Positions 7,261-60,104 of a stretch of 64,000 nucleotides of DNA are shown here, piece by piece. This stretch comes from Tepidamorphus gemmatus (GTDB lineage Bacteria > Pseudomonadota > Alphaproteobacteria > Rhizobiales > Tepidamorphaceae). The DNA lies in NCBI RefSeq assembly GCF_004346195.1, contig NZ_SMAK01000005.1:1-64000 (forward strand), read 5' to 3'. The notes below the pieces were generated by a model, which worked only from the letters and a program-made list of their open reading frames with translations, had not been told where the DNA came from and ran no database searches. The translations under genes and the position numbers were made by a program. Each line of letters starts with the position of its first letter. Position 1 is the first letter of the stretch.

Positions 7261-10214
7261 CACAGCACCTCCTTCAGCCAAGCGGGCGGGTTTTCAGTGG
7301 GGGAACGTTCGAAGGCACGTTCCCCGGCATGTTCCCCGGCGCAAGTGCTTGGCAGGCCTTGCGTTGGGGAACGTGGGGAAGGTGGGGAACGTTTTTCCGC
7401 CTCTTTATTATTATTGTCAGGCGCGCGCGACCGCTCACGCGCTAGCATTGAAAAACGTTCCCCACCTTCCCCATGTTCCCCGAGCCCTTCATTTTCAATG
7501 ACTTCGGCCGGGGAACGTGTGGGGGAACGTTGGTCGCACGTTCCCCCCTCCGAGTGGCTGTAGCCCTCGGAAAAACGTTCCCCACGTTCCCCGTGGGTCG
7601 ATGGCCCTTCCTCGATGGCTAGCTGCCAGCGCTGGGCCTGGTGGGAGATGCCTGTTGCACGGACGCGCAGACGAAGTGCATCGAAGGCGAACACGCGATC
7701 GCGCATCCGCCCAAGGGCCTTGCCGAGGCGGGTCCGCTGCGAGCGGTCGCTGCCGTTGCCGAGCGGCAGCGGCGGCTCGCATTCTCCGGCAATCGGAAAC
7801 AGATCGGAGGTGCCGACCTCCGCCGTGCCGAAGCGATCCCACCAGGCGGCAACGAAGCTGCGCCACATGATTCCTTCGGCATCCGAAGCCTCGTAGAGCT
7901 CGTCTGCGTTGGCGAGGAATCCGGGCACTCCGGCGACATCGAGAATGCCACCCACGATCTCGGACCAGGACTCGAAGCTGCCGAGGGTCGTGCGCTGATA
8001 GCGAGGCCTTCCGGCCTCGACCCAGGCGCGGCCGAGCGTGAGGCAGGCGGCGACGAGCGGACCCCGATTGGCGTGGATCCAGGCGAGCAGATTGGGATGG
8101 CGGAAGCCGTCCCGCTGCCAGGGCCGGTCCATGTGGGCATCGAGACGGATGCGCACGGTGCGGCGGGCGATTTCGTTCGAGAGCTGAGGGTTGTTGCCGG
8201 TTGCGACCCATGCGCAGCGGACCGGCATGCGGACGATGTCGGAGCGGCCCAGAATGCGGTCCTCCCAATACGGGGCGGTGAGCGCGGCGGCGAGGGGTGC
8301 GGCATCGAGGGGACGGCGCAGGTTGTCGATCACGACCATGAGCGGTGAGGAGCGCAGCTTGGCGGTGAGCCGCTTGCGCCATTCCTCCTCGTCGCGGCCT
8401 TCGGTCATGATCGAGGCCGAATGTCCGGTTGCGACGACGGCAACGGCATCGACCAGGAGCGTGGCCCCGGTTCCCGGCGTGGGCTTTTCGATGAGGTGCA
8501 AGGGCGTCGGTCCTTCGATCAGCGGGCGGACGAAGGGCAGGAGCAGGAGGGCGAGCGCGTGCGCGCGCTCGGCCTCGGAGGTGAAGGGAAAATCGCCCAA
8601 GAGATCATCGAGGAGCAGCGAGCGCGCGGCGGCGACTTCGGAGTTGCTCGGATGTACGGGGATAGGTGGAAGCGCGAAGCCTGGCGGCGGTTCGTGCAGC
8701 AAGCGCGTTGCCGGGTGATAGCCGCTCATCGTGACGAGCTCGCCCGCGCGACCGAAGACGGGCGCGGCGACGATGCCGGCGAGCACCGGCAGGTCGGGAT
8801 TGGGGGTCGCGAGCAGAGCCTTGACGAGCGGCATCGGTGGAGGCGCGGGTACGAGATCGCCTTCCCGATTGCGCTTGCGCCAATCGATGAGGTGGGCGAG
8901 CGCGAGTCTCAAGCGGTCCTCGGTGAGATGGAGGGCCATGGCCCGGCCGTCGTCGTCGCGGGCAACCCAGGCGAGCATGGCACCCATGCGGTAGAGCCAG
9001 GGCCGCTCATTGCACTCCGAAAGCAGCGCGCGGGTCTGTTCTGCGAGCACGGCGAGATCGCCGTTGTCGGCGCGCAACCGCGGCCGCATCCCCGTGATGA
9101 TCGGAAATCCGACCGGCAGGTTCGGCGCGTCGCTGCGGCCAGCCGCCAAGCGAGCGGCATCGCTTGTCGGCGCCGACGGCCTCCATTCTGCGGCCGATTC
9201 GACGACCGCGCGCACCGCCTGTGCACCCGCGCGGCGCAGCAGATCGTTGAAATCGTCTCCTTCCTGGGGCGGCAGCGCGATGAAGACGCGACAGCCCTGC
9301 TGATGCAGCGTGAGGGCGGCCGCTTCGGCCGCTCGTTGTCCGGCGCCCGACGCATCGTGGTCGGCAAGGATGATGACGCGCGCGATGCCGGGCGGAAGCT
9401 CGATCTGTTCGAGATTGGAGGCGGACAGGGTCGCCCAGACGGGCATGTCCGGACAGGCCGTCATCACCGCGAGCGCGGTCTCGATGCCCTCGGCGAGCGC
9501 GAGCAGACCATCGATGGGGGCGGACAAGCGCACGGCCCCGCCGCCCGACTTGCCCAGCATCTTGCGGTTGGGCGTCAGTGGCGCCTTGCCGGTGCCGTCG
9601 GGCGCGAGCCAGGTGCGATGCAGTCCGATCGCCTCGTCTTTGGCATCGCGGATCACCGCGACCATCGCCGGTGAGCCGGTCCTGGTCTCCCAATGAACGA
9701 GATCGGGATGGAAGCGGAGATCCTCGCATGACGGAACGGTGAGCCCACGCGCGCGCAGGTAGGTCTCCGCGAGCGTGCCGGCGATCGGCACGGTGCGGGC
9801 GAGAATGATCGCGATCTCCCGCGTGCTGTCCTTCTCTTTCGGAGGCGGCGGGGGATCGCGTCGGACGGGCGGCGTCGTGCTCCAACCGGTGATCGTGGCG
9901 GCATGGGCGTAGAGATCGCGCCCGGCAAGTCCGGTGGCGTGCTGGAGTGCGTTGAGCGGACCGCCACCCTCGCCGCCGTCGTGATCGTACCAATCGCCGG
10001 CGTGCGCGCCTTGGAGCGCGATCACGCAGGAGCCGTTCTTGCGCGGGGCGCGTCCGGTAATGTCGGCCAGGCGCCAGACGTCGCCGTCTCGGCGACCATT
10101 GGGAAAATGCTTTGGTACCCAGCTTGCCGCAGTGTCGCGCAGGCCGGCGACGATCGCATCGAGATCGTAATGGATGTGGGGCGCGGGCGGAGCGACGTCG
10201 TTGAGGTCGATCAT
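7260..10214 (-). CDS. Toprim-domain phage primase/helicase-like replication protein
   Basis: The protein has 984 residues. The N-terminal region (VWRLADITGRAPRKNG...GDWYDHDGGEGG) resembles phage/plasmid primases with DUF7146-type starts. A Toprim domain follows at about 235-330, with catalytic Glu in LALAEGIETALAV and the acidic pair in IILADHDASGAG. Residues 560-720 look like a helicase-type ATPase: a degenerate Walker A (PTPGTGATLL, with no Lys), Walker B (PLMVVIDNL) and sensor 1 (AWVATGNNP). The last 110 residues repeat GERGERFS and GEHGEGGERFS because the DNA carries GGGGAACGT repeats. It should prime and initiate element replication. Confidence 0.82.
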   Translation of the reverse strand: MIDLNDVAPPAPHIHYDLDAIVAGLRDTAASWVPKHFPNGRRDGDVWRLADITGRAPRKNGSCVIALQGAHAGDWYDHDGGEGGGPLNALQHATGLAGRDLYAHAATITGWSTTPPVRRDPPPPPKEKDSTREIAIILARTVPIAGTLAETYLRARGLTVPSCEDLRFHPDLVHWETRTGSPAMVAVIRDAKDEAIGLHRTWLAPDGTGKAPLTPNRKMLGKSGGGAVRLSAPIDGLLALAEGIETALAVMTACPDMPVWATLSASNLEQIELPPGIARVIILADHDASGAGQRAAEAAALTLHQQGCRVFIALPPQEGDDFNDLLRRAGAQAVRAVVESAAEWRPSAPTSDAARLAAGRSDAPNLPVGFPIITGMRPRLRADNGDLAVLAEQTRALLSECNERPWLYRMGAMLAWVARDDDGRAMALHLTEDRLRLALAHLIDWRKRNREGDLVPAPPPMPLVKALLATPNPDLPVLAGIVAAPVFGRAGELVTMSGYHPATRLLHEPPPGFALPPIPVHPSNSEVAAARSLLLDDLLGDFPFTSEAERAHALALLLLPFVRPLIEGPTPLHLIEKPTPGTGATLLVDAVAVVATGHSASIMTEGRDEEEWRKRLTAKLRSSPLMVVIDNLRRPLDAAPLAAALTAPYWEDRILGRSDIVRMPVRCAWVATGNNPQLSNEIARRTVRIRLDAHMDRPWQRDGFRHPNLLAWIHANRGPLVAACLTLGRAWVEAGRPRYQRTTLGSFESWSEIVGGILDVAGVPGFLANADELYEASDAEGIMWRSFVAAWWDRFGTAEVGTSDLFPIAGECEPPLPLGNGSDRSQRTRLGKALGRMRDRVFAFDALRLRVRATGISHQAQRWQLAIEEGPSTHGERGERFSEGYSHSEGGTCDQRSPTRSPAEVIENEGLGEHGEGGERFSMLARERSRAPDNNNKEAEKRSPPSPRSPTQGLPSTCAGEHAGERAFERSPTENPPAWLKEVL
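7300..7600. repeat. Iteron-like GGGGAACGT repeat cluster inside the primase gene
   Basis: About a dozen copies of GGGGAACG or its complement CGTTCCCC occur within 300 bases, in both orientations (for example near 7302, 7320, 7373, 7388, 7455, 7513, 7524, 7540 and 7575). The arms GGGGAACGTTTTTC (7388) and GAAAAACGTTCCCC (7448) form an inverted repeat. The cluster covers the 3' end of the primase gene and dictates its low-complexity tail. Clustered short repeats next to a replication gene suggest an origin or a binding site for the replication protein. Confidence 0.6.
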
Positions 10215-50035: not shown

Positions 50036-50171
50036 AGGTTTGGAGCCTCCGCCAAACCCGGCGCGGTTCACATGGCCCCGGGAGCCATCCCATCTCATGG
50101 GTCATGGCCACGGACAGCACCTTGCGTGCTTCGGGATTGGATCGCTAACATTCCAGCGGGAGAGGATGCCG

Positions 50172-51023
50172 ATGAGGAGGAGAACGGTCCTTGGCGGGAT
50201 CGCATCGAGTGCGATCATCGCCATGCCGGCGCTCGTGCGAGCCGCGGCAGCCTTCCGGCTGGGGCTGACACCTGTCTTTCTCGACAACGACGCCGTGGTC
50301 ATCGAGAGGCTGCGAGCGGCGCTGTCGGAAGCCCTCGGCGAACCCGTCGAACTGGTCCAGCGCAGGACCTACCAGGAAATCACGGCGGCTCTTCTCGACG
50401 GAACGCTCGATGCAGCCTGGATCTGCGGCTATCCCTTCCTGCAGCAGCGCGAAAGGCTCGAGCTGGTTGGCGTTCCCGTCTGGCGCGGACGACCGTTCTA
50501 TCAATCCTATCTGATCGTCGGCGCCGATGACGAGGCGCAGTCTCTGGCGGATCTGCGAGGCGGAACCCATGCCTTCTCCGATCCCGACAGCAATTCCGGA
50601 TACCTCGTGACCGCCTCCGATCTCAGCCGGATGGGCGAAACGCCTGAAGGGTTCTTCTCGCGGACCATCTACACCTATGGCCACAGGAATGTCGTGCGCG
50701 CCGTTGCGGGGGCGCTGACGAGATCGGGCAGTGTCGATGGCTATGTCTGGGAATCGCTTGCTTTGGTGGAACCTGCCCTGACGGCGGGCACGCGCGTCAT
50801 CGCCCGGTCCGAATGGCTCGGATTCCCGCCATTCACAGCGCGCGCGGATCGCCGCAGCTCGGCCGAGGTCGAAGGATTCGCCGAGGTTCTGACGACCCTC
50901 GAGGCGACACCCGCCGGCAAGGATATCCTGCGCCTGCTGTTCCTCGATCGCATCGTGGCCGGCGATCCTGCATGGTTCGACGGCATCGCCTTGCGGATGG
51001 CCGATGTGAGGGCGCGCCGATGA
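50172..51023 (+). CDS. aioX: Periplasmic arsenite sensor AioX (PhnD-like binding protein)
   Basis: The protein has 283 residues with an arginine-led signal peptide (MRRRTVLGGIASSAIIAMPA). The PhnD/TctC-like binding fold has FRLGLTPVFLDNDAVVIERL and DGTLDAAWICGYPFLQQ. Cys85 in AWICGYP is the likely counterpart of Agrobacterium AioX Cys108, which binds arsenite. AioX binds As(III) and signals through AioS/AioR. ATG at 50172 is preferred over 50166 because GGGAGAGG then lies at good distance. It overlaps aioS by four bases. Confidence 0.85.
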   Translation: MRRRTVLGGIASSAIIAMPALVRAAAAFRLGLTPVFLDNDAVVIERLRAALSEALGEPVELVQRRTYQEITAALLDGTLDAAWICGYPFLQQRERLELVGVPVWRGRPFYQSYLIVGADDEAQSLADLRGGTHAFSDPDSNSGYLVTASDLSRMGETPEGFFSRTIYTYGHRNVVRAVAGALTRSGSVDGYVWESLALVEPALTAGTRVIARSEWLGFPPFTARADRRSSAEVEGFAEVLTTLEATPAGKDILRLLFLDRIVAGDPAWFDGIALRMADVRARR

Positions 51024-52447
51024 TGACCGGGCGTTTCGGCACCTGGCCGATCACCGTCCGCGTCGTGCTCGTGACCGCCGCCCTGATGATCCTGCTCGGT
51101 GTCATCGCCTCGCAGCAGGTTCTGTCCACCCTCGGCCGGCTCCAGAATGACCGCCTGCAGGAATTCGCCCGGCTGCACCTCGAGGGGCTGGCCGTGGCGC
51201 TCGGTCCCTTCGCCTTGCACAAGGACATCTGGGAAGTCTACGACACACTCGACCGCGCCCGCATCAGTGCCTCGGGAGAGCGCATCCGCCTGACGGTCGT
51301 GGCTGACGAAAACGGCCGGGTCCTCGCTGCGACGGATCCGGTCCGCGCGCCGATCGACGCGTCGATCGAGGCGTTTTCGAACGGGGCACACGCCATCGAC
51401 GACGTGACCGCCGGCAGTGGCGAATCGGTCGTCCGCGTTGCCGCACCACTGGTGGTCCAGGGACGCAATGTCGGCCTCGTGGTATCGGAACTCGATATCA
51501 GCGACCTCGTGGCCGAGCGCCGGACCGCGACCCTGGCGCTTCTCGCCGGCAATGCCGCGGCGACGGTCATCGTCGTGCTCGCCGGCTACATCGCCGTGGC
51601 GCGCATTCTCGAACCGATCGAGCTGCTGGCCCGCCACATGGGCGAGGCGGGCGATGCACCGCGCCCGATTCCCGAGGCGGCGATCCCGCGCTCGGATACC
51701 CTCCTGTCCAGATTGCTGCGCAATTTCAATGACATGGCCGGAGCCATCGACGCGCGTCGGGAGGTCGAACGCCGTCTTGCGGAACGCGAGCGCTTCGTCA
51801 GTCTGGGTCGTCTGGCGTCTTCTCTTGCCCACGAGATCAACAATCCGCTCGGCGGTCTCGTCAATGCCGCCGATACGATCCGCGCCTATGCGGATCGGCC
51901 GGAGGTCGTCCGACGATCAGCCGATCTCCTCGACCGCGGGTTGCGACACCTGCGCGACGTGAGCCGGGTAATCCTCGAGGAGAACCGGCTGGATCGGTCG
52001 GCACGTCCCCTGTCATCCACCGATTTCGATGACCTGCGGCTGCTGTTCGAGCCCGAGACCGTGCGTCGCCGGCAGCGGCTGGGTTGGCAGATTCCGCCCC
52101 CTCAGGAATTGGTCGGGCACTATCCGTCGGCTGCGATACGGCAGATTTCGCTCAATCTGCTCCTGAACGCCGCATCGGCAGCACCGGAGGGAGGCGAGGT
52201 ATCATTCACCGTCGCCTGCACCTGCGACCATCTCCATCTCACCGTCACCGACAACGGGCCCGGGCTGTCGCCCGCCGCGCTCGATCGCCTGGTCTCGGCC
52301 GCGCCGCTGGCACCGGGGGGCGGGGTCGGGCTGCGCCTGGTGAGGGATCTGGTGCTCGGTCTCGACGGCGACATCCTTCATGAACGCCGTGACGGACGAA
52401 CCCTGATCAGGGTCATCGTGCCCAGTCGGGAACAAGCATCATGCTGA
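51020..52447 (+). CDS. aioS: Sensor histidine kinase AioS
   Basis: The protein has 475 residues and starts MMTGRFGTWPITVRVVLVTA. Two membrane helices (about 12-35 and 175-200) enclose a periplasmic sensing region. A HAMP-like segment, the H-box (LASSLAHEINNPLGGLVNAAD), N-box (LNLLLNAASAAP) and ATP-binding G-boxes (VTDNGPGLSP, GGVGLRLVRDL) follow. It should phosphorylate AioR when AioX reports arsenite. It overlaps aioX by four bases and aioR by seven. Confidence 0.87.
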   Translation: MMTGRFGTWPITVRVVLVTAALMILLGVIASQQVLSTLGRLQNDRLQEFARLHLEGLAVALGPFALHKDIWEVYDTLDRARISASGERIRLTVVADENGRVLAATDPVRAPIDASIEAFSNGAHAIDDVTAGSGESVVRVAAPLVVQGRNVGLVVSELDISDLVAERRTATLALLAGNAAATVIVVLAGYIAVARILEPIELLARHMGEAGDAPRPIPEAAIPRSDTLLSRLLRNFNDMAGAIDARREVERRLAERERFVSLGRLASSLAHEINNPLGGLVNAADTIRAYADRPEVVRRSADLLDRGLRHLRDVSRVILEENRLDRSARPLSSTDFDDLRLLFEPETVRRRQRLGWQIPPPQELVGHYPSAAIRQISLNLLLNAASAAPEGGEVSFTVACTCDHLHLTVTDNGPGLSPAALDRLVSAAPLAPGGGVGLRLVRDLVLGLDGDILHERRDGRTLIRVIVPSREQASC

Positions 52448-53655
52448 AGGGACGCTATCTCGTGCTCATCGAGGACGACACCCTGATGGGCAGTTCGCTC
52501 GTCCAGCGCCTCGAGCTCGAAGGGGCAACGGTCACCTGGCTCAGGCAGGTCGTCCGCGGCATCGCGGCCGTCCGAACCCCACGCCGACCCGTCGACGCGG
52601 TGATCTGTGACATCCGCCTTCCTGACGGCACCGGCGAGGACATCTTCAGCGCGGTCTCCCGTTCGATGGCACCTCCGCCATTCCTGTTCATCACCGGTCA
52701 AGGCGAAATCGATCAGGCGGTGCGGCTGTTGCGGGCCGGTGCCGCCGATTACCTGACCAAACCGTTCGACCTTCCGACCTTCCTGCAGCGCCTGTCGCTG
52801 GTCATGCGCCCGGACGTTGCCAACGACATGCCTCCGCAAGCCGGCATCTCCCTGCTGGCGCGCCAGGTCGATTCCCTGGTCCTCGCCGCCGCCCGGCATG
52901 ACATGCCGGTCCTGATCCGCGGTCAGAGAGGGCTCGGCAAGGCCCGCCTGGCCCGTCGCATCCACGAGCTTTCGGACCGCAGGCTGGCGCCCCTCGTCAC
53001 CATCGATGTCTTCCGCGACGAGTCCGGCGAGCGAGCCATCGCGGCTGCGCTCGACGCAGCCTCGGAGGGAACGCTGTTCGTCAACGGGATCGGCCGGCTC
53101 GATCCGGCCGCGCAGCGCCGGCTGATGGCCGCCATCGGACAGGTGGACGTTCGGGTGATCGGTACTTGCGGGACGCGGATCGACGAGAAGATCGCCGCCG
53201 GCCGGTTCCGGTCGGACCTGCATTGCGCCCTGGTCGCCAACGAAATCGTCGTACCGCCGCTGTCACAGCGCATCGAGGATGCCGTATGGCTCGCCGGACA
53301 GATGTTCCAGGCCTTCGGTCCGCGACGACAGACCAGGTTGAAGGGACTGTCCGAGCTTGCCCTTGCTGCCATCCGCGATCACGACTGGCCGGGTAACGGC
53401 CGGGAGGTGAGGTCGCGCCTGCTGCGCGCCATCGACGCTGCGCGCGGCGAATGGATCTATCCCGCCGACCTCTTTCCGGAGTTCAACCTCGACGATCGCG
53501 AGGTGCTGACACTCGCCGATGCACGCGAGCGGGCGGAACGGCGCCAGATCCTGAAGGTGCTCGCCCAGACCGGCGGTCAGATCGGCGAGGCCGCCCGCCT
53601 GCTGAAGGTGTCGCGCACGACGCTCTGGGAGAAGATGCAGAAGCTGGGAATCTGA
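52441..53655 (+). CDS. aioR: Response regulator AioR with degenerate AAA+ domain
   Basis: The protein has 404 residues. The receiver domain has acidic pocket LIEDD and phospho-acceptor Asp57 (VICDIRLPDG), with Lys in DYLTKPFD. The middle resembles an NtrC-type sigma-54 activator, but Walker A is GQRGLGKA, the Walker B Asp-Glu is replaced (GTLFVNGIG for GTLFLDEIG), and the segment that should carry the GAFTGA loop is missing. A Fis-type helix-turn-helix ends the protein (GQIGEAARLLKVSRTTLWEKM). It should bind DNA upstream of aioB, but classical sigma-54 activation by ATP hydrolysis looks unlikely. Confidence 0.85.
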   Translation: MLKGRYLVLIEDDTLMGSSLVQRLELEGATVTWLRQVVRGIAAVRTPRRPVDAVICDIRLPDGTGEDIFSAVSRSMAPPPFLFITGQGEIDQAVRLLRAGAADYLTKPFDLPTFLQRLSLVMRPDVANDMPPQAGISLLARQVDSLVLAAARHDMPVLIRGQRGLGKARLARRIHELSDRRLAPLVTIDVFRDESGERAIAAALDAASEGTLFVNGIGRLDPAAQRRLMAAIGQVDVRVIGTCGTRIDEKIAAGRFRSDLHCALVANEIVVPPLSQRIEDAVWLAGQMFQAFGPRRQTRLKGLSELALAAIRDHDWPGNGREVRSRLLRAIDAARGEWIYPADLFPEFNLDDREVLTLADARERAERRQILKVLAQTGGQIGEAARLLKVSRTTLWEKMQKLGI

Positions 53656-53665
53656 GCCGACTGTC

Positions 53666-53683
53666 TGTTCGGAATTCCGAACA
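53666..53683. promoter_or_regulatory. Perfect 18-bp palindrome upstream of aioB
   Basis: TGTTCGGAATTCCGAACA is an exact palindrome 11 bases after the aioR stop and about 120 bases before aioB. It is the best candidate for an AioR dimer site. A second, smaller inverted repeat, TTGGG-AGA-CCCAA, lies at 53712-53724. The only GG-N10-GC pair in the spacer would start transcription at the aioB start codon, so no proper sigma-54 promoter is visible. Confidence 0.6.
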
Positions 53684-53802
53684 TCGACGATCATTCAATT
53701 ATTTCAGATATTTGGGAGACCCAATCGGGTTCTGTCCGATCCCCCTGGGGCCGTCTGTCTCCGCTAGACTCGGCGTCACATCAGCTTGGGGAGGAGATGA
53801 CC

Positions 53803-54327
53803 ATGAAATGTTACCGGCTGGTCGATGTCGGCCGCCGCGAGTTCCTGCGCGGCGGCCTGTTTGGCGCCGCAGGAGCGGCAGCGGCGACGGTCATGCCCGC
53901 GGCATCGGCACGGGCGGAGGGGCTCGCGCGGGTGAGCTATCCGTCCAACAGGCTCGCGAACATCGCGGATCTGAAGGTCGACGAACCCGTCGAGATCGCC
54001 TATCCCGACCCGGACAGCCCCGGCGTGCTGCTCAAGCTCGGCAAGGCCGTCCCTGGTGGGGTCGGGCCGGACGGCGATATCGTCGCCTTCTCGATCCTGT
54101 GCCCGCACAAGGGCTGGCTTCTGACCTACAACGCCGGCGACCGCACCCTGAACTGCCCGGGCCACTACTCGCGCTTCGATTGCGAAGCCGGTGGCCAACA
54201 GACCTGGGGCCATGCGACGCAGAACCTGCCGCAGTTCGAGCTGCGGATCGACGCTCAGGGCGACATCTACGCCGAGGGCGTGGATGAACTGATCTACGGC
54301 CGCCTGTCGAACGTGCTGAGTGCGTGA
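53803..54327 (+). CDS. aioB: Arsenite oxidase small subunit AioB (Rieske protein)
   Basis: The protein has 174 residues. A twin-arginine signal (GRREFLRGGLFGAAGAA) directs folded export with its partner. The Rieske 2Fe-2S ligands are in CPHKGWLLTYN (C-x-H) and CPGHYSRFDC (C-x2-H), followed by the typical QQTWGHATQNLPQFEL. It passes electrons from the molybdenum subunit to the respiratory chain. ATG at 53803 sits eight bases after GGAGG; ATG at 53797 is too close to it. It is followed after 14 bases by aioA. Confidence 0.93.
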   Translation: MKCYRLVDVGRREFLRGGLFGAAGAAAATVMPAASARAEGLARVSYPSNRLANIADLKVDEPVEIAYPDPDSPGVLLKLGKAVPGGVGPDGDIVAFSILCPHKGWLLTYNAGDRTLNCPGHYSRFDCEAGGQQTWGHATQNLPQFELRIDAQGDIYAEGVDELIYGRLSNVLSA

Positions 54328-54341
54328 AGGGGGGAGTGGAC

Positions 54342-56807
54342 ATGACCTACAAGCGCTTCACCGACCGCCTGCCCATCATCCCTGCGGACGCCAAGGAGTT
54401 CAACGTCACCTGCCACTACTGCATCGTCGGCTGCGGCTACAAGGCCTATACTTGGCCGCTCAACAGGCAGGGCGGCCTGGCACCGGCCGAAAACAAGTTC
54501 GGTGTCGACCTGCGTGAGCAGCAGCCGCTCGAGACCGAGGCCTGGTACGCGCCGTCCATGTACAATGTCGTCAAGCAGAACGGCCGCGACGTGCATCTGG
54601 TCATCAAGCCCGACGTGAACTGTGTCGTGAACTCGGGCCTGGGGTCCGTTCGCGGCGCCCGGATGGCGGAGAACCGGCGGTCCGACGTCACCGGTACCCA
54701 GCAGCAACGTCTTACCGATCCGATGGTCTGGCGATACGGCACCTGGCAACCGACGACCTGGGACGATGCGCTGGATCTTGTCGCCCGCGTCACCGCCCGA
54801 TTCATCGACATGGACAATGAAGATGATCTCTTCGTCTCCATGTTCGATCATGGCGGCAGCGCCGGCGGCTACGAGAACACCTGGGGCACTGGCAAGCTCT
54901 ACTTCGGCGCGATGAAGGTTCGGAACTGCCGGATCCACAATCGACCCGCCTACAATTCCGAGGTGCACTCCTCGCGCGACATGGGTGTCGATGAACTCAA
55001 TTATGCCTACGAGGACTATACCCTCACAGACACGATCATGATCGTCGGCGCCAACCCGCTCGAATGCCAGACCAATCTTTTCCTCAACCATATGGTGCCG
55101 GGTCTGCGCAATGGCGCCAAGGCGATCATCATCGATCCGCGCAGAACGGTGACGGTCCGCGCCTGCGAGGAAGCGGCCGGAGCAGAGAATGTGCTGCACC
55201 TGCAGCCGAACTCGGGAACCGACCTGGCCCTGCTGAATGCGATGTTCACCTATATCGCCGATCAGGGCTGGGTGGACCGCGACTTCATCGCCGCCTCGAC
55301 GTTTGCGGACGGCATCGCGGTACCGGAGGACAGCGCACATCCGGCAGCGCTCGGCAGTTTCGACAGGGCGCGCGAAGCCTGCCGCATGTCGATCGCAGAA
55401 GCCGCCGGCATCTGCGGTCTTGCCGAGGCCGACATAATAAAGGCCGCCGAATGGTATGCGCGGCCGCACGAGGACGGCAGCCGCCGCAAGGCGGTCATCG
55501 CCTACGAGAAGGGAATCATCTGGGGCAACGACAATTACCGGACGATCGGTGCCCTGGTGAACCTGGCGCTCGCGACCGGCAACATCGGCCGCGAGGGCGG
55601 CGGCGTCTGCCGGCTGGGCGGCCATCAGGAGGGCTATTTCCGGCCGTCGGACGCTTTCATCGGCCGCCCCGCCCCCTATTTCGATCAGCTGCTGACATCC
55701 GGTCGGGGTCGCGTCCACCACATCTGGGCCTGCGACCACTACAAGACCACGCTCAACGCCTCCGTCTTCAAGCGGGAATACAACCGTCGCACCAACATGG
55801 TGAAGGAGGCGATGGATTCGGCCGCCGGTGCAACCCGCGAGGAGCTGGTGAGCGCCATCGAGGGCGCCATCCGCGCCGGCGGCCTGTTCTCGGTCAATGT
55901 CGACATCATCCACAGTCAGATCGGCCAGGCGGCACATGTCATTCTGCCGGCCTGCGAATCCGGGGAGATGAACCTCACCTCGATGAACGGCGAGCGGCGG
56001 TTGCGGCTCGTCGAGCGCTACATGGATCCGCCCGGACAGGCGATGCCTGACTGCCTGATCGCGGCCCGTCTGGCCAATCATCTCGAGCGGGTCCTGACCG
56101 AGGAAGGCCGAACCGAGTATGCGGCCCGGTTCAAGGGCTTCGACTGGCAGTCGGAGGAAGACGCCTTCATGGACGGCTATCACCAGGCCAATCCCGAGGT
56201 GACTTATGAACGCCTCCGCGCAATGGGCAACAACGGCGTGCAGGAGCCGGTCGTCGGCTACAAGGATGGCAAGCTCATCGGTACGGTTCGGCTCTATGCC
56301 GACGGCGTCTTCACCCGGCATGGACGTGCGGATGGCAAGGCGCTGTTCTGCCTCGGCGGATGGCGGGGACTGCAGGCTCCCGGAAAGGCCCAACAGAAGG
56401 CGAATTATCGGTTCCTGATCAACAACGGACGATCGAACATCAACTGGCAGAACTGGTTCCTTGACCAGGACAATGATTTCGTGATCGACCGCTTCCCGTT
56501 GCCATTCCTGCAGATCAACCCCGATGACGCTGCCGAACTCGGCGTGAACAACGGCGACATGGTCGAAGTCTACAACGATGTCGGCGCAACCCAGGCGATG
56601 ATCTATATCGAACCGACGGCGCGCCGAAACGAGACGTTCATGCTGTTCGGTGCGCCATCCGGCACCCAGGGCAATGTCATCAATGCCGGCGTGAACGAAC
56701 TCATCCTGCCGAACTACAAGCAGACCTGGGCGAACATACGCAAGATCGCCGATGCCAGCCCGGCCACGGCGCCGCTCAGCTTCAAGTCGTGGGAGGTAAG
56801 GCTCTGA
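54342..56807 (+). CDS. aioA: Arsenite oxidase large subunit AioA (molybdopterin)
   Basis: The protein has 821 residues, the usual length. The 3Fe-4S cluster ligands are Cys24, Cys27 and Cys31 (CHYCIVGC). Molybdopterin-binding regions of the DMSO-reductase superfamily follow, with AioA-specific stretches MFDHGGSAGGYENTWGTGKLYF, NCRIHNRPAYNSE and GQAAHVILPACESGEMNLTS. It oxidises arsenite to arsenate in the periplasm. It has no signal of its own and is carried by the Tat signal of AioB. The start at 54342 has GGGGGGAG six bases upstream. Confidence 0.96.
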   Translation: MTYKRFTDRLPIIPADAKEFNVTCHYCIVGCGYKAYTWPLNRQGGLAPAENKFGVDLREQQPLETEAWYAPSMYNVVKQNGRDVHLVIKPDVNCVVNSGLGSVRGARMAENRRSDVTGTQQQRLTDPMVWRYGTWQPTTWDDALDLVARVTARFIDMDNEDDLFVSMFDHGGSAGGYENTWGTGKLYFGAMKVRNCRIHNRPAYNSEVHSSRDMGVDELNYAYEDYTLTDTIMIVGANPLECQTNLFLNHMVPGLRNGAKAIIIDPRRTVTVRACEEAAGAENVLHLQPNSGTDLALLNAMFTYIADQGWVDRDFIAASTFADGIAVPEDSAHPAALGSFDRAREACRMSIAEAAGICGLAEADIIKAAEWYARPHEDGSRRKAVIAYEKGIIWGNDNYRTIGALVNLALATGNIGREGGGVCRLGGHQEGYFRPSDAFIGRPAPYFDQLLTSGRGRVHHIWACDHYKTTLNASVFKREYNRRTNMVKEAMDSAAGATREELVSAIEGAIRAGGLFSVNVDIIHSQIGQAAHVILPACESGEMNLTSMNGERRLRLVERYMDPPGQAMPDCLIAARLANHLERVLTEEGRTEYAARFKGFDWQSEEDAFMDGYHQANPEVTYERLRAMGNNGVQEPVVGYKDGKLIGTVRLYADGVFTRHGRADGKALFCLGGWRGLQAPGKAQQKANYRFLINNGRSNINWQNWFLDQDNDFVIDRFPLPFLQINPDDAAELGVNNGDMVEVYNDVGATQAMIYIEPTARRNETFMLFGAPSGTQGNVINAGVNELILPNYKQTWANIRKIADASPATAPLSFKSWEVRL

Positions 56808-57088: not shown

Positions 57089-58960
57089 TCAGTCCCGCAC
57101 GAGCCGACGGCCGAAGGTGGGCGCCACCTCGGGAATCGGCGGCATCTGCCAGGTACCGGTGATCGGAATGCCGGTGTCGCGGTTGATCACCACATCGAGT
57201 ACGGTCGGCACGTCGGAGCCGATCGCCTCGGCATAGGCGTCGGCGAACTCGTCGGGGTGCTCGATGCGGATGCCGCGCCCGCCCATCGCCTCGGTCATCC
57301 GGACGAAATCCGGATTCCACAGTTCGCCGGTACTCTCCTTGATGAAGCTGGTGCCAAGCTCGCGGCCACCGAGATAGGCACGCTGCAGGTCGCGGATCGT
57401 GCCGATGGCATAGTTGTTGAGCAGCACCCAGACCGCCGGCAGGCCGTATTCGACGGCCGTCGCCACCGCGTGCGGCGTCATCATGAAGCCGCCGTCGCCG
57501 CACAGCGTCACGCACGGACTGTGGGGTCGCGCCAGGCGGGCGCCGAGCACGCCGCAGACGCCGAAGCCCATCGCCGCGAACCCGCCGGCGGTCATGTGGT
57601 TGCCTGGCGTCCGCACCTCCCAGTACTGTTCCGACCAGACCTGGCAATTGCCGACGTCGTCGACCATCACCGTGTCCGGCGGCGACAGGCGGTTCATCTC
57701 GGCAAGGATGCGGCGCGGCTCGATCGGGGTCTCGCGGCTCGTGCTGTAAGGCGCACAGAAGTTGCGCCACTCGGACTGCCAGCCGGCGATTTCCTGCCGC
57801 CACCCCGCCGTGTCGGCGCGCCGACCACGGCTGCGGGCAGCCGTCAGCAGCTTGCCGAGGAACTCCTTCGCGTCCGCCGTGATCCCCAGTTCGACGGGAT
57901 AGTTGCGACCGATCTCGTTGTCGTCGATGTCGACCTGGATCAGCCGGGTCGGTGGGATGTTGTAGACATAGCCCTTGATCCAGGATCCGGTGTGCAGGTC
58001 GTTGAAGCGGGCGCCGATCGCAAGGATGACGTCGGCGTTGCGCGCAGCTTCCGTCGCCGGATATTCGCCCCAGACGCCGCCGACGCCAAGATGCAGGTAA
58101 TGATCGTGCGGCAGCGCGCCCTTGCCCATGAAACTCGTGTAGACTGGAATGTCGAGCTGTTCGGCGACCGCCCTGAGCTCGCCGAACGCCCCGGCAACCC
58201 GAATGCCGCCACCGGCAAGGATCAACGGCTTGCGGCCCCCCAGCATGAGGTCGAGCACCCGGGACACGGTCATGTCCGACAGGCCCATCCGCCAGCCGCC
58301 GCCGGCACCGTTGGTGTGCGGCTCCGGTACCGACACCGGAGAGGTCTCGATATAGAGATTGTACGGCATGTCGATATGGACGGGGCCCGGCCGGCCCGAC
58401 CGCATCAGGGCGAAGGCTTCGGGCAGCGCCACACACAGATCCTCGACCCGCTCGATGCGGAACGACTTCTTCACGATCGGCGCGAACAGCGATGACATGG
58501 TGCCGTTGTAACGGTAGTCGTCCTGCAGCGCCCCGGAGTTGAGCTGTGTCGTCGGGACGTTGCCGGTGATCACCAGGAAGGCGGAATTGTCGTAGAAGGC
58601 GTTCGCCACCGAGATCATCAGGTTCATCGGCCCGGGCCCCGTCGAGGCGTAGACCACAAGCGGCTTGCCGGTGAGGCGGAAATAGACATCGGCCATGAAT
58701 CCTGCTGCCTGCTCGATACGCGGGCTGATATGGCGGATGCGGTCGGTCTGCCTGTAGATGCCATCGAGCAGCCCGATGGCACCGTGCCCCGCGTAGCCGA
58801 GGATCACCGGCACCCCCTCCCTGACAAGGTACTCGGCAATGATGTCGGTGCCGCGCATCTCGTTGCTGCCGGCCATGCCGCTGTAGCTGCGCGAGGGCGA
58901 GAAACTTCCGTACGAACCGCCGAACCGCGAGGTCGAGCGGTATTGCGAACGCCGGTCCAT
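57089..58960 (-). CDS. Acetolactate synthase-like TPP-dependent enzyme
   Basis: The protein has 623 residues. The N-terminal TPP-binding part has VREGVPVILGYAGHGAIGLL and the catalytic glutamate in RIEQAAGFMADVYF. STGPGPMNLM, a central FAD/ADP-type domain (PLILAGGGIRVAGA) and the C-terminal diphosphate motif GDGGFMMTPHAVATAVEYGL...NN follow. Members decarboxylate 2-oxo acids and join or transfer the fragment. The substrate is unknown. The start at 58960 has GGGAGG six bases upstream, and a Ser/Arg/Tyr-rich leader (RSTSRFGGSYGSFSPSRSYS) precedes the core. Confidence 0.88.
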   Translation of the reverse strand: MDRRSQYRSTSRFGGSYGSFSPSRSYSGMAGSNEMRGTDIIAEYLVREGVPVILGYAGHGAIGLLDGIYRQTDRIRHISPRIEQAAGFMADVYFRLTGKPLVVYASTGPGPMNLMISVANAFYDNSAFLVITGNVPTTQLNSGALQDDYRYNGTMSSLFAPIVKKSFRIERVEDLCVALPEAFALMRSGRPGPVHIDMPYNLYIETSPVSVPEPHTNGAGGGWRMGLSDMTVSRVLDLMLGGRKPLILAGGGIRVAGAFGELRAVAEQLDIPVYTSFMGKGALPHDHYLHLGVGGVWGEYPATEAARNADVILAIGARFNDLHTGSWIKGYVYNIPPTRLIQVDIDDNEIGRNYPVELGITADAKEFLGKLLTAARSRGRRADTAGWRQEIAGWQSEWRNFCAPYSTSRETPIEPRRILAEMNRLSPPDTVMVDDVGNCQVWSEQYWEVRTPGNHMTAGGFAAMGFGVCGVLGARLARPHSPCVTLCGDGGFMMTPHAVATAVEYGLPAVWVLLNNYAIGTIRDLQRAYLGGRELGTSFIKESTGELWNPDFVRMTEAMGGRGIRIEHPDEFADAYAEAIGSDVPTVLDVVINRDTGIPITGTWQMPPIPEVAPTFGRRLVRD

Positions 58961-59372
58961 GCCATGCCTCCCAGACGGCCTCTGCGGGCGGTCCCGGAAG
59001 CCTAGCGCCGCTACGGAAAGCCGGCAATCATCCGCAGATTGCCGGTCGTCGCGATGTCGCCTCCGGCAGGTCCGACCGATCGGGATGGGCTGGGAAGAGG
59101 GATGGGAGACAGCGGAATTGGGGTCGCGATCGACGCTGCCTCCCACCCAGTCCGGGCTGACTACGCACGACCAGATGCCAGCCTGCCACATCCCCCTGCA
59201 AGCCTGCTGCCAGGTAGGGTTAACGTGACTCGACCCAACATCTGGTGGTCATCTGGGGTAGCCGCTACTGCATGGTGGGCAGCGGCCGCGGCCGGCGGCC
59301 AACCCGCGTCGCATTCTGCAAGCCATTTCGCAATTTGCGACGGGCCCGGTCGGGAACGCAGGCGTTGGCCGC

Positions 59373-60104
59373 CTACTCAGCGGCTTCGCGACGGCCGCGG
59401 GCATCGCTGTCCAGCCAGAGGCTCAGGAAGTTCTCGAGCCAGCGACGGATCTCCGGATCGTAGACCGACCGCCCCTCGAAGTGGCGGGCCCTCGCCTGGG
59501 CGCCGGGCATGGCCAGCCGTTCGGCGCCGCGCACCGTCCAGCGATGCATCATCGCCAAGGTCAGCTCGGCATGGAATTGTATGCCGTAGGCGCACGGCCC
59601 CACGGCAATCGCCTGGTTGCGGAACATGTCGCCGGTGGCCAGCAGACGCGCACCGCGCGGCACCTCGAAGCCTTCACGGTGCCACTGGTAGACCATGTGC
59701 GGCCAGGGGCCGAGCGAGCGGCCTTCCGGTGTCGGATAGATCGGATAGTAGCCAACCTCGGCGCAGCCGTCGCGGTGCGGTTCGACCTTGCCGCCGAGTG
59801 TGCGCACCATCTGCTGGGCGCCCAGGCAGATGCCGAGGAACGGCGCCTGTTCCTTTAGCGGAATGTTGATCCAGTCGATCTCGCGGCGGATGTAGTCGAG
59901 ATCGTCGTTGGCGCTCATCGGGCCGCCGAAGATGATCGCCCCCGCATGACCATCCATCGTCTCGGGCAGCGGATCGCCAAGCACGGGGCGGCGGATGTCG
60001 AGCGCGTAGCCGCGCGCCGCGAGGATCTGGCCGATCCGGCCGGGCGTCGAGGTCTCCTGGTGAAGGACGATCAGGATCGTCTCGGTCTGGATGGTGCTGC
60101 GCAT
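59373..60104 (-). CDS. Class I glutamine amidotransferase-like protein
   Basis: The protein has 243 residues. The catalytic cysteine is in FLGICLGAQQMVRTLGG, and the His/Glu pair in GIQFHAELTLAMMHRW. AIIFGGPMSANDDLDYIRREIDWI completes the GMP-synthase-like GATase fold. Stand-alone members hydrolyse gamma-glutamyl amides or act as glutaminase units. It follows an SDR gene on the same strand by 18 bases and likely belongs to the same unit. The acceptor substrate is not known. Confidence 0.87.
   Translation of the reverse strand: MRSTIQTETILIVLHQETSTPGRIGQILAARGYALDIRRPVLGDPLPETMDGHAGAIIFGGPMSANDDLDYIRREIDWINIPLKEQAPFLGICLGAQQMVRTLGGKVEPHRDGCAEVGYYPIYPTPEGRSLGPWPHMVYQWHREGFEVPRGARLLATGDMFRNQAIAVGPCAYGIQFHAELTLAMMHRWTVRGAERLAMPGAQARARHFEGRSVYDPEIRRWLENFLSLWLDSDARGRREAAE

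Follow-up and report, generated by a model that had tools for sequence, protein, structure and literature searches.

A GAFTGA-less clade of the arsenite regulator AioR is very likely independent of sigma-54

Introduction

AioR, the NtrC-type response regulator of the arsenite oxidase genes aioBA, is described in the accessible text of several papers as acting with RpoN, the sigma-54 factor (PMC7533571, PMC3834237, PMC6011840), and the available parts of the literature report sigma-54 dependence for Rhizobium NT-26 and A. tumefaciens 5A. Elsewhere among NtrC-type regulators, the NtrC of R. capsulatus has no GAFTGA loop and is reported to work with sigma-70, for which it must bind ATP but need not hydrolyze it (PMC10274813, citing Bowman and Kranz 1998), and GAFTGA loss goes with sigma-70 dependence in HupR, TyrR, and DhaR, with VpsR suspected of the same (PMC3162934), in the sections of those papers available to us. 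Here, we analyze the aioXSR-aioBA locus in a 64,000-nucleotide stretch of the Tepidamorphus gemmatus genome (contig NZ_SMAK01000005.1, positions 1 to 64,000; hereafter, the window). The initial annotation of this DNA had proposed that its AioR lacks the parts needed for sigma-54 activation, that no sigma-54 promoter precedes aioB, and that control is of a different kind. A literature search found no paper naming AioR together with GAFTGA, and in the portions available of the literature on AioR/Rhodobacter, Roseovarius, aioS, and arsenite oxidase, we found no report of a sigma-54-independent AioR.

Results

The AioR of the window lacks the GAFTGA loop and the catalytic Walker B residues

The gene context expected of an AioR orthologue, aioX-aioS-aioR beside aioBA, is found in the window, where all five genes lie on the + strand (Table 1) and where AioX and AioS are 48% and 39% identical, respectively, to their NT-26 counterparts over the matched stretches. 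The NtrC-type architecture of AioR is intact, with the receiver, AAA+, and Fis-type helix-turn-helix (HTH) domains all present (PF00072, PF14532/PF00158, PF25601, and PF02954). In alignment, the GAFTGA loop, which makes the sigma-54 contact, is absent, as the initial annotation had stated, and its reading of the Walker B position (VNG for LDE) was exact: the window has TLFVNGIG and NT-26 AioR has ILFLDEIG, with N215 and G216 replacing the Asp-Glu pair for ATP hydrolysis. Two insertions are short in this protein, not one. Walker A and Walker B are 43 residues apart (also the median of the clade described below), versus a median of 60 in GAFTGA-bearing AioR, a difference of 17 residues, and Walker B and sensor I are 18 residues apart (clade median 19), versus 31. 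The span given in the initial annotation, 52441-53796, does cover aioR and the promoter region after it, but the gene itself ends at 53655 and the rest is the aioR-aioB gap.

The 54 proteins of the clade are open over >350 residues, and all 54 retain Walker A G164, G166, and K167, receiver Asp57 and Lys107, and sensor II Arg321; HTH residues R392, T393, T394, L395, and W396 are likewise invariant within a near-invariant HTH. The Walker B Asp is found in 1/54 and the Glu in none. Nucleotide-binding residues are therefore kept and catalytic ones dropped, a pattern most likely explained by nucleotide being bound as a structural cue. A sequencing error or pseudogene was ruled out in practice by the recurrence of the same state in 54 proteins with open frames and invariant receiver residues. 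We conclude that loop loss is a lineage trait and not a defect of a single protein.

An AlphaFold2 model of the window AioR (mean predicted local distance difference test score 87.5, predicted template modeling score 0.57) was used for fold comparison only. Ranked by E-value, Foldseek placed NtrX (PDB 5m7n/5m7o/5m7p) first, with template modeling (TM) scores near 0.5 over the whole chain. The window genome also encodes an NtrX-like protein (L005), which has no GAFTGA and reads IDQ at Walker B, and an NtrC-like protein (L001), which keeps GAFTGA.

AioR proteins fall into two classes

A scan for AioA over genome contigs gave 80 named loci, the best 80 of 367 confirmed relatives, a sampling that leans to near relatives; additional genomes and 13 plasmid-record stretches supplied further loci. 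Seven presumed duplicates (L107, L096, L120, L127, L062, L145, and L090) were excluded, and 13 loci had no AioR match. The tree set comprised 112 of 114 AioR, the fragments of <350 residues (L049 and L091) being left aside. In L091, from Jhaorihella thermophila, aioR matches in one frame and at the C-terminal part only (query residues 238-404), which could reflect a frameshift or a sequencing error.

The loop was scored with a relaxed pattern, GA[FL][ST][GNS]A or GSFSGA, such that GAFTSA and GAFTNA counted as present. Aligning AioR from many genomes at Walker B and GAFTGA, as the initial annotation had recommended, separated 53 proteins with a loop from 59 without. Its description of AioR family members as sigma-54 activators stands for the loop-bearing class, which includes NT-26 and Agrobacterium, but very likely not for the loop-less class of the window, some members of which are themselves annotated as sigma-54 regulators. 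When the columns spanning loop and Walker B were removed before tree building, 54 of the loop-less proteins formed one clade (Shimodaira-Hasegawa-like approximate likelihood ratio test support, 100), mostly of Rhodobacterales as judged by record titles and with the window included; its neighbors there are Thermohalobaculum, Psychromarinibacter, Roseivivax, and Tropicimonas. The other five comprise a group of three (L020, L045, and L105) and two that stand alone (L131 and the long-branched L050). These small-loss lineages all keep an acidic Walker B pair, DE in four and ED in L050.

On a careful tree of 109 rows, from which the long-branch loop-bearing rows L130, L142, and L134 were excluded, loop state needs four changes, with the loop columns excluded. 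Across 200 bootstrap trees, the count stays at four from the 5th to the 95th percentile; changes forced by starred branches number three on this tree and two on the quick tree. We read the four changes as losses because the outgroup has the loop. The loop-less class is frequent among the sampled Rhodobacterales and occurs on plasmids too. One Rhodobacterales-type aio cluster (L018) lies in a metagenome-assembled genome (MAG) labeled Verrucomicrobiaceae, which could reflect mis-binning or transfer.

The window host belongs to what we take to be the Hyphomicrobiales. Since its AioR nests among Rhodobacterales proteins while another genome of its family (G204, locus L099) carries the loop-bearing class, the aio cassette, regulator plus promoter together, has probably moved horizontally.

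Loss of the loop goes with loss of the -24/-12 site

Sites were scored 25-110 bp upstream of aioB with a leave-one-out sigma-54 matrix, the threshold being the null 99% level; shuffled nulls, here and for the TA..CT and IHF-like counts below, permute neighboring base pairs as blocks and are not full dinucleotide shuffles. Because the region upstream of aioB was not usable for L102 and L130 (loop) or for L138 (no loop), the matrix count comprises 51 and 58 loci. In the window gap (53656-53796), -24/-12 is absent, the best 17-mer scoring -6.9 versus a pair-shuffled 99% level of 9.6. A single GG-N10-GC lies on the + strand of the gap (53772-53785), between the -10-like hexamer and aioB, in agreement with the earlier statement that no usable site of this kind precedes aioB.

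Across loci, a site above threshold was found at 50/51 with a loop versus 3/58 without, L134 being the sole loop-bearing exception, and a plain consensus count gave 44/51 versus 3/60. The consensus scan recovered the published NT-26 promoter, TGGCACAACGATTGCA, whose sequence we took from the accessible text of PMC6011840. All five small-loss loci score below threshold. Chance absence of -24/-12 was ruled out by the matrix and consensus counts across loci. These data show that protein and promoter changed together.

A -10-like element lies at a fixed distance from the AioR palindrome

The presumed AioR-binding palindrome, TGTTCGGAWWTCCGAACA, is present in both AioR classes and best conserved in the loop-less clade. 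The copy upstream of aioB is the only perfect one in the 3.78-Mb window genome, where three more places match with 3 mismatches, which suggests aioBA as the main target of the window AioR. At window positions 9098-9115, distant from aio, a stretch resembles the palindrome but departs from the AioR consensus at 3 positions; it may be a chance match. A second copy (at least 11/18 positions) 29-34 bp away was seen at 46/47 loop loci and 4/5 small-loss loci but at only 2/52 loci of the main clade.

The main clade instead has an element resembling a -10 hexamer. TA..CT occurs within -60 to -25 of aioB at 38/53 clade loci (2.9 expected) versus 2/51 loop loci (3.6 expected). We then counted every TAnnnT by position, without prior choice, in place of a -10 matrix scan, excluding L139, whose stretch has no palindrome because an insertion sequence (IS) element lies between. 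TAnnnT sits 90-93 bp from the palindrome at 49/52 clade loci, and outside offsets 85-98 no 4-bp range exceeds 8 loci (mean about 1). Over 50 loci, the distance from TAnnnT to the palindrome has an SD (standard deviation) of 0.86 bp, and that to aioB an SD of 5.4 bp. In L013, TAnnnT is at 81, about one helical turn closer to the palindrome, and in L067 it is about 91-92 from the lower of two palindromes. Within TAnnnT, conservation is highest at the T, A, and T, the pattern of RpoD -10 elements. No -35 is visible in the conserved columns upstream of the clade element. The aioB transcript of the window is predicted to start near 53777.

The spacer between palindrome and -10 is otherwise little conserved over much of its length, but the clade conserves CAANNNNTTG within it, a sequence similar to the IHF consensus WATCAANNNNTTR. 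The site listed for the window in Table 1 was read by hand at this conserved position, and the automated best IHF-like match, also with 2 mismatches, falls at another place. Matches with at most 1 mismatch occur at 13/51 loop and 10/53 clade loci, versus about 1.5 and 1.9 expected, a moderate enrichment in both classes.

Other features were seen in individual loci. Many clade members, though not the window, partly conserve a GC-rich inverted repeat (TTGCCGC..GCGGCA-like) at +38 to +53 from the palindrome, about 50-65 bp upstream of the predicted start, which may bind a second regulator. On the Cereibacter azotoformans ORIO plasmid (L138, 4501-6000), a GAFTGA-less AioR-like gene is followed by an annotated 4Fe-4S protein and a molybdopterin oxidoreductase, not aioBA, in an operon that is arx-like by gene order. 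Tandem palindromes are present there, as is TACCAT at 91 bp, and a second kind of arsenic oxidoreductase may thus be under this switch. On a Pseudosulfitobacter pseudonitzschiae plasmid (L139, 5800-7139), an IS3-family transposase gene splits aioR from aioB downstream of the palindrome and -10-like element; TAnnnT lies there at 91 and also at 22, 71, and 152. L138 and L139 both stand apart from the 52 loci counted above.

Several hosts of the loop-less clade have no detectable rpoN

Searches for rpoN used PF04552 and TIGR02395; 24 hosts of the loop class were tested, not all, and the hosts of L046 and L060 lay outside the first set of 23 genomes. rpoN was found in 24/24 of these loop-class hosts and in 5/5 small-loss hosts. 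In the main clade it was found in 28/45, L016 and L073 having full-length matches below the TIGR02395 cut-off. The remaining 17/45 gave no match over the PF04552 cut-off and none with TIGR02395; L076 and L091 have short PF04552 matches of 20.8 and 20.3 bits, under the cut-off of 22.8.

Full rpoD was present in 14 of these 17 hosts, whose assemblies are therefore not grossly incomplete; L025, L070, and L075 were without full rpoD and were taken as incomplete. One of the 14 (L091) has a partial aioR only. Nine of the 14 are not labeled MAGs: Tropicimonas IMCC6043, Psychromarinibacter sediminicola, Roseivivax isoporae, Gemmobacter aquaticus, Roseovarius A-2, Roseovarius 217, Phaeobacter J2-8, Frigidibacter RF13, and Jhaorihella thermophila (the host with partial aioR). 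The 14 include three of the four relatives nearest to the window; rpoN is undetectable in the near relatives L013, L014, and L017. If the absence is real, AioR cannot act via sigma-54 in those hosts. An explanation of the trait by host rpoN loss only was ruled out, since the window host has rpoN and a GAFTGA-bearing activator and 28/45 clade hosts have rpoN.

Features of the aio locus

The coordinates of the locus are collected in Table 1. Rfam at gathering thresholds gave zero matches to RNA elements over 53500-53900. Convergent to aioA lies a gene for a thiamine-pyrophosphate enzyme (57089-59191, -), adjoining one for a class-I glutamine amidotransferase domain protein (59373-60104, -).

Table 1. 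Genes, protein motifs, and promoter elements of the aio locus, in window positions
Feature	Position	Strand	Remarks
aioX, periplasmic arsenite-binding protein	50163..51023	+	Pfam PF12974 (Phosphonate-bd fold), 3.9e-45; first in signal chain
aioS, sensor histidine kinase	51017..52447	+	Pfam HisKA and HATPase_c; HEINNP stretch present
aioR, NtrC-type response regulator (404 aa)	52441..53655 (stop included)	+	Receiver, AAA+, and Fis-type HTH
Walker A of AioR, GQRGLGK, residues 161-167	52921..52941	+	Kept
Walker B position of AioR, TLFVNGIG, residues 211-218	53071..53094	+	Asp and Glu lost
aioR-aioB gap	53656-53796		Promoter region
Presumed AioR-binding palindrome, TGTTCGGAATTCCGAACA	53666..53683	+	18/18 positions match
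IHF-like site, TTTCAGATATTTG, weak	53702..53714	+	2 mismatches to WATCAANNNNTTR; hand-read at clade-conserved CAANNNNTTG position
-10-like hexamer, TAGACT	53765..53770	+	91 bp from palindrome
aioB, Rieske small subunit of arsenite oxidase	53797..54327	+	TIGR02694, 194.1 bits (cut-off 95.65)
aioA, molybdopterin large subunit of arsenite oxidase	54324..56807	+	TIGR02693, 1138.5 bits (cut-off 359.05)

Discussion

It is very likely that the AioR of this clade is independent of sigma-54, and we think it probable that an RpoD-type promoter is activated by phospho-AioR, with neither sigma-54 nor ATP hydrolysis involved, in the manner of GAFTGA-less NtrC-type proteins. In this scheme we infer that the sigma factor is RpoD, that AioR activates and does not repress, that nucleotide is bound but not hydrolyzed, and that IHF has any role. 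AioX would sense arsenite and AioS would phosphorylate AioR on Asp57, steps carried over from characterized orthologues and compatible with the receiver residues present. Phospho-AioR, probably as one dimer, would bind the single palindrome, whose center lies near -103 relative to the predicted start, and would recruit or activate housekeeping-sigma RNA polymerase at a promoter with a TAnCCT-like -10 and no recognizable -35. Nucleotide would probably be bound (Walker A is kept) and not hydrolyzed (the Walker B Asp and Glu are lost), so that no remodeling work would be done, and DNA bent at the intervening IHF-like site may draw palindrome and promoter close to each other. Plain class I and class II activators usually bind nearer to the start than this palindrome, which lies ~100 bp upstream of the predicted start. 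The different mode of control proposed in the initial annotation is supported by the joint change of protein and promoter, the fixed -10-like element, and the 14 rpoD-bearing hosts without detectable rpoN. As for its more specific suggestion, simple DNA binding with sigma-70, the sigma-70 part fits the evidence, but simple binding may understate the mechanism, given the invariant Walker A (54/54) and the distant palindrome.

Other readings of the same promoter differ in the sigma factor or in the sign of control. The RpoD-like conservation of T, A, and T in TAnnnT makes it unlikely that the TAnCCT element belongs to another sigma factor of the RpoH or extracytoplasmic function type, a comparison in which other sigma consensus sequences were not searched. 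Such a factor would fit the lack of a TTGACA-like -35 and has a parallel in NT-26 aioX, for which an RpoE2 promoter was mapped in addition to an RpoD one (PMC6011840, accessible text). We also regard it as distinctly improbable that clade AioR is a repressor or anti-repressor, with arsenite relieving repression of a constitutive RpoD promoter. The GAFTGA-less NtrC of Caulobacter does repress hvyA and sciP, according to the available part of PMC10274813, but 50/52 clade loci with a palindrome in the gap have no second copy at the 29-34 bp spacing, the single palindrome is separated from the -10 by a long stretch, on its upstream side, with no overlap between them, and a missing -35 is expected of an activator-dependent promoter; AioR orthologues, moreover, are described as activators in the portions of the literature available.

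Two further readings would remove AioR from the regulation of aioBA or restore sigma-54 to it. A lasting sigma-54 dependence, via a divergent -24/-12 or another intact activator in trans, could draw on the host's rpoN and GAFTGA-bearing NtrC-like protein; it is very unlikely given the -6.9 score of the window on the sigma-54 matrix and the near relatives L013, L014, and L017 without detectable rpoN, and a second activator would leave the fixed distance from palindrome to -10 unexplained. AioR could also be decaying, with aioBA made by read-through from the aioXSR operon, since loss of catalytic residues can mark decay and a search for a terminator-like site between aioR and aioB found none. 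This we hold to be most improbable: the frames of 54 clade proteins are open, their receiver residues do not vary, and their HTH hardly does; the spacing of palindrome and -10 has an SD of only 0.86 bp, while much of the spacer is little conserved. Read-through from aioXSR may nevertheless add to aioBA expression.

Several observations weigh against sigma-54-independent, RpoD-dependent activation as we propose it. The window genome has rpoN and the GAFTGA-bearing activator L001, so the rpoN argument covers its relatives and not the window host. A sigma-70 scanner found no promoter in the window gap, a blank due to the absence of a -35, and a sigma-70 -10 matrix lifts only 8/53 clade loci above the null 95% level. 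Three of 58 loop-less loci (L063, L014, and L136) pass the sigma-54 threshold; the L014 match is probably chance, as rpoN is undetectable there. The promoter label needs 8 changes on the tree versus 4 for the loop, owing to single-locus calls on both sides, and an independent-pairs test, with 2 pairs on starred branches and 4 over all branches, had too few of them to become significant. Fold similarity does not separate the alternatives, sigma-54 activators following close behind NtrX. Finally, in its accessible text, PMC3834237 reports -24/-12 sites in each of the 12 operons with aioXSR that it examined; Rhodobacter sp. SW2, which appears in its list of islands, is possibly one of the 12.

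We tentatively propose, at somewhat less than even confidence for the proposal as a whole, that AioR records a sigma-factor change caught in stages, with smaller losses in the small-loss lineages and larger ones in the Rhodobacterales-centered clade, where a single AioR dimer would sit near -103 on a -35-less RpoD promoter with rigid helical spacing. The small-loss lineages have lost or altered the loop and have no -24/-12, but 4/5 keep tandem palindromes; the main clade has further lost Walker B, the second palindrome, and the residues that precede sensor I, and its -10 is held at about 91 bp from the one palindrome left. All four inferred loop losses go with the absence of a sigma-54 site but differ in the amount of further change, and the family is therefore a natural series in which to follow the joint change of sigma factor by a regulator and its promoter, and the firing of a -35-less promoter from a fixed site near -103. 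By present evidence, the view of arsenite oxidation as sigma-54 controlled via AioR holds for one AioR class only, and the loop-less class should be free of rpoN. The proposed geometry of AioR, if true, would be unlike both flexible enhancers and ordinary class I/II activators, and would have let the arsenite system live in rpoN-less bacteria.

The closest known systems are the AioR of NT-26 and Agrobacterium (the locus compared here being that of CFBP6624), which share with the window the gene order aioX-S-R-B-A, the same kind of palindrome, the same receiver and HTH residues, and 40-42% identity, but differ in having GAFTGA, the Walker B DE, tandem palindromes, and a -24/-12 promoter. NtrX also has GAFTGA missing in the alignment; its likeness to the window AioR in the predicted fold says little on mechanism, because TM-scores are near 0.5 and sigma-54 activators are close behind. 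The NtrC of R. capsulatus, whose sites lie far upstream, is likewise an NtrC-type response regulator without the L1 GAFTGA loop, although its signal, partner kinase, and DNA site are different. HupR, TyrR, DhaR, and VpsR resemble the window AioR in being descended from sigma-54 activators with GAFTGA lost (PMC3162934), yet they answer to other signals and promoters, and no graded loss series with matching promoters is reported for them in the available text. GAFTGA-less NtrC-type regulators that act on sigma-70 are already known, and the AioR of this clade would add a further case.

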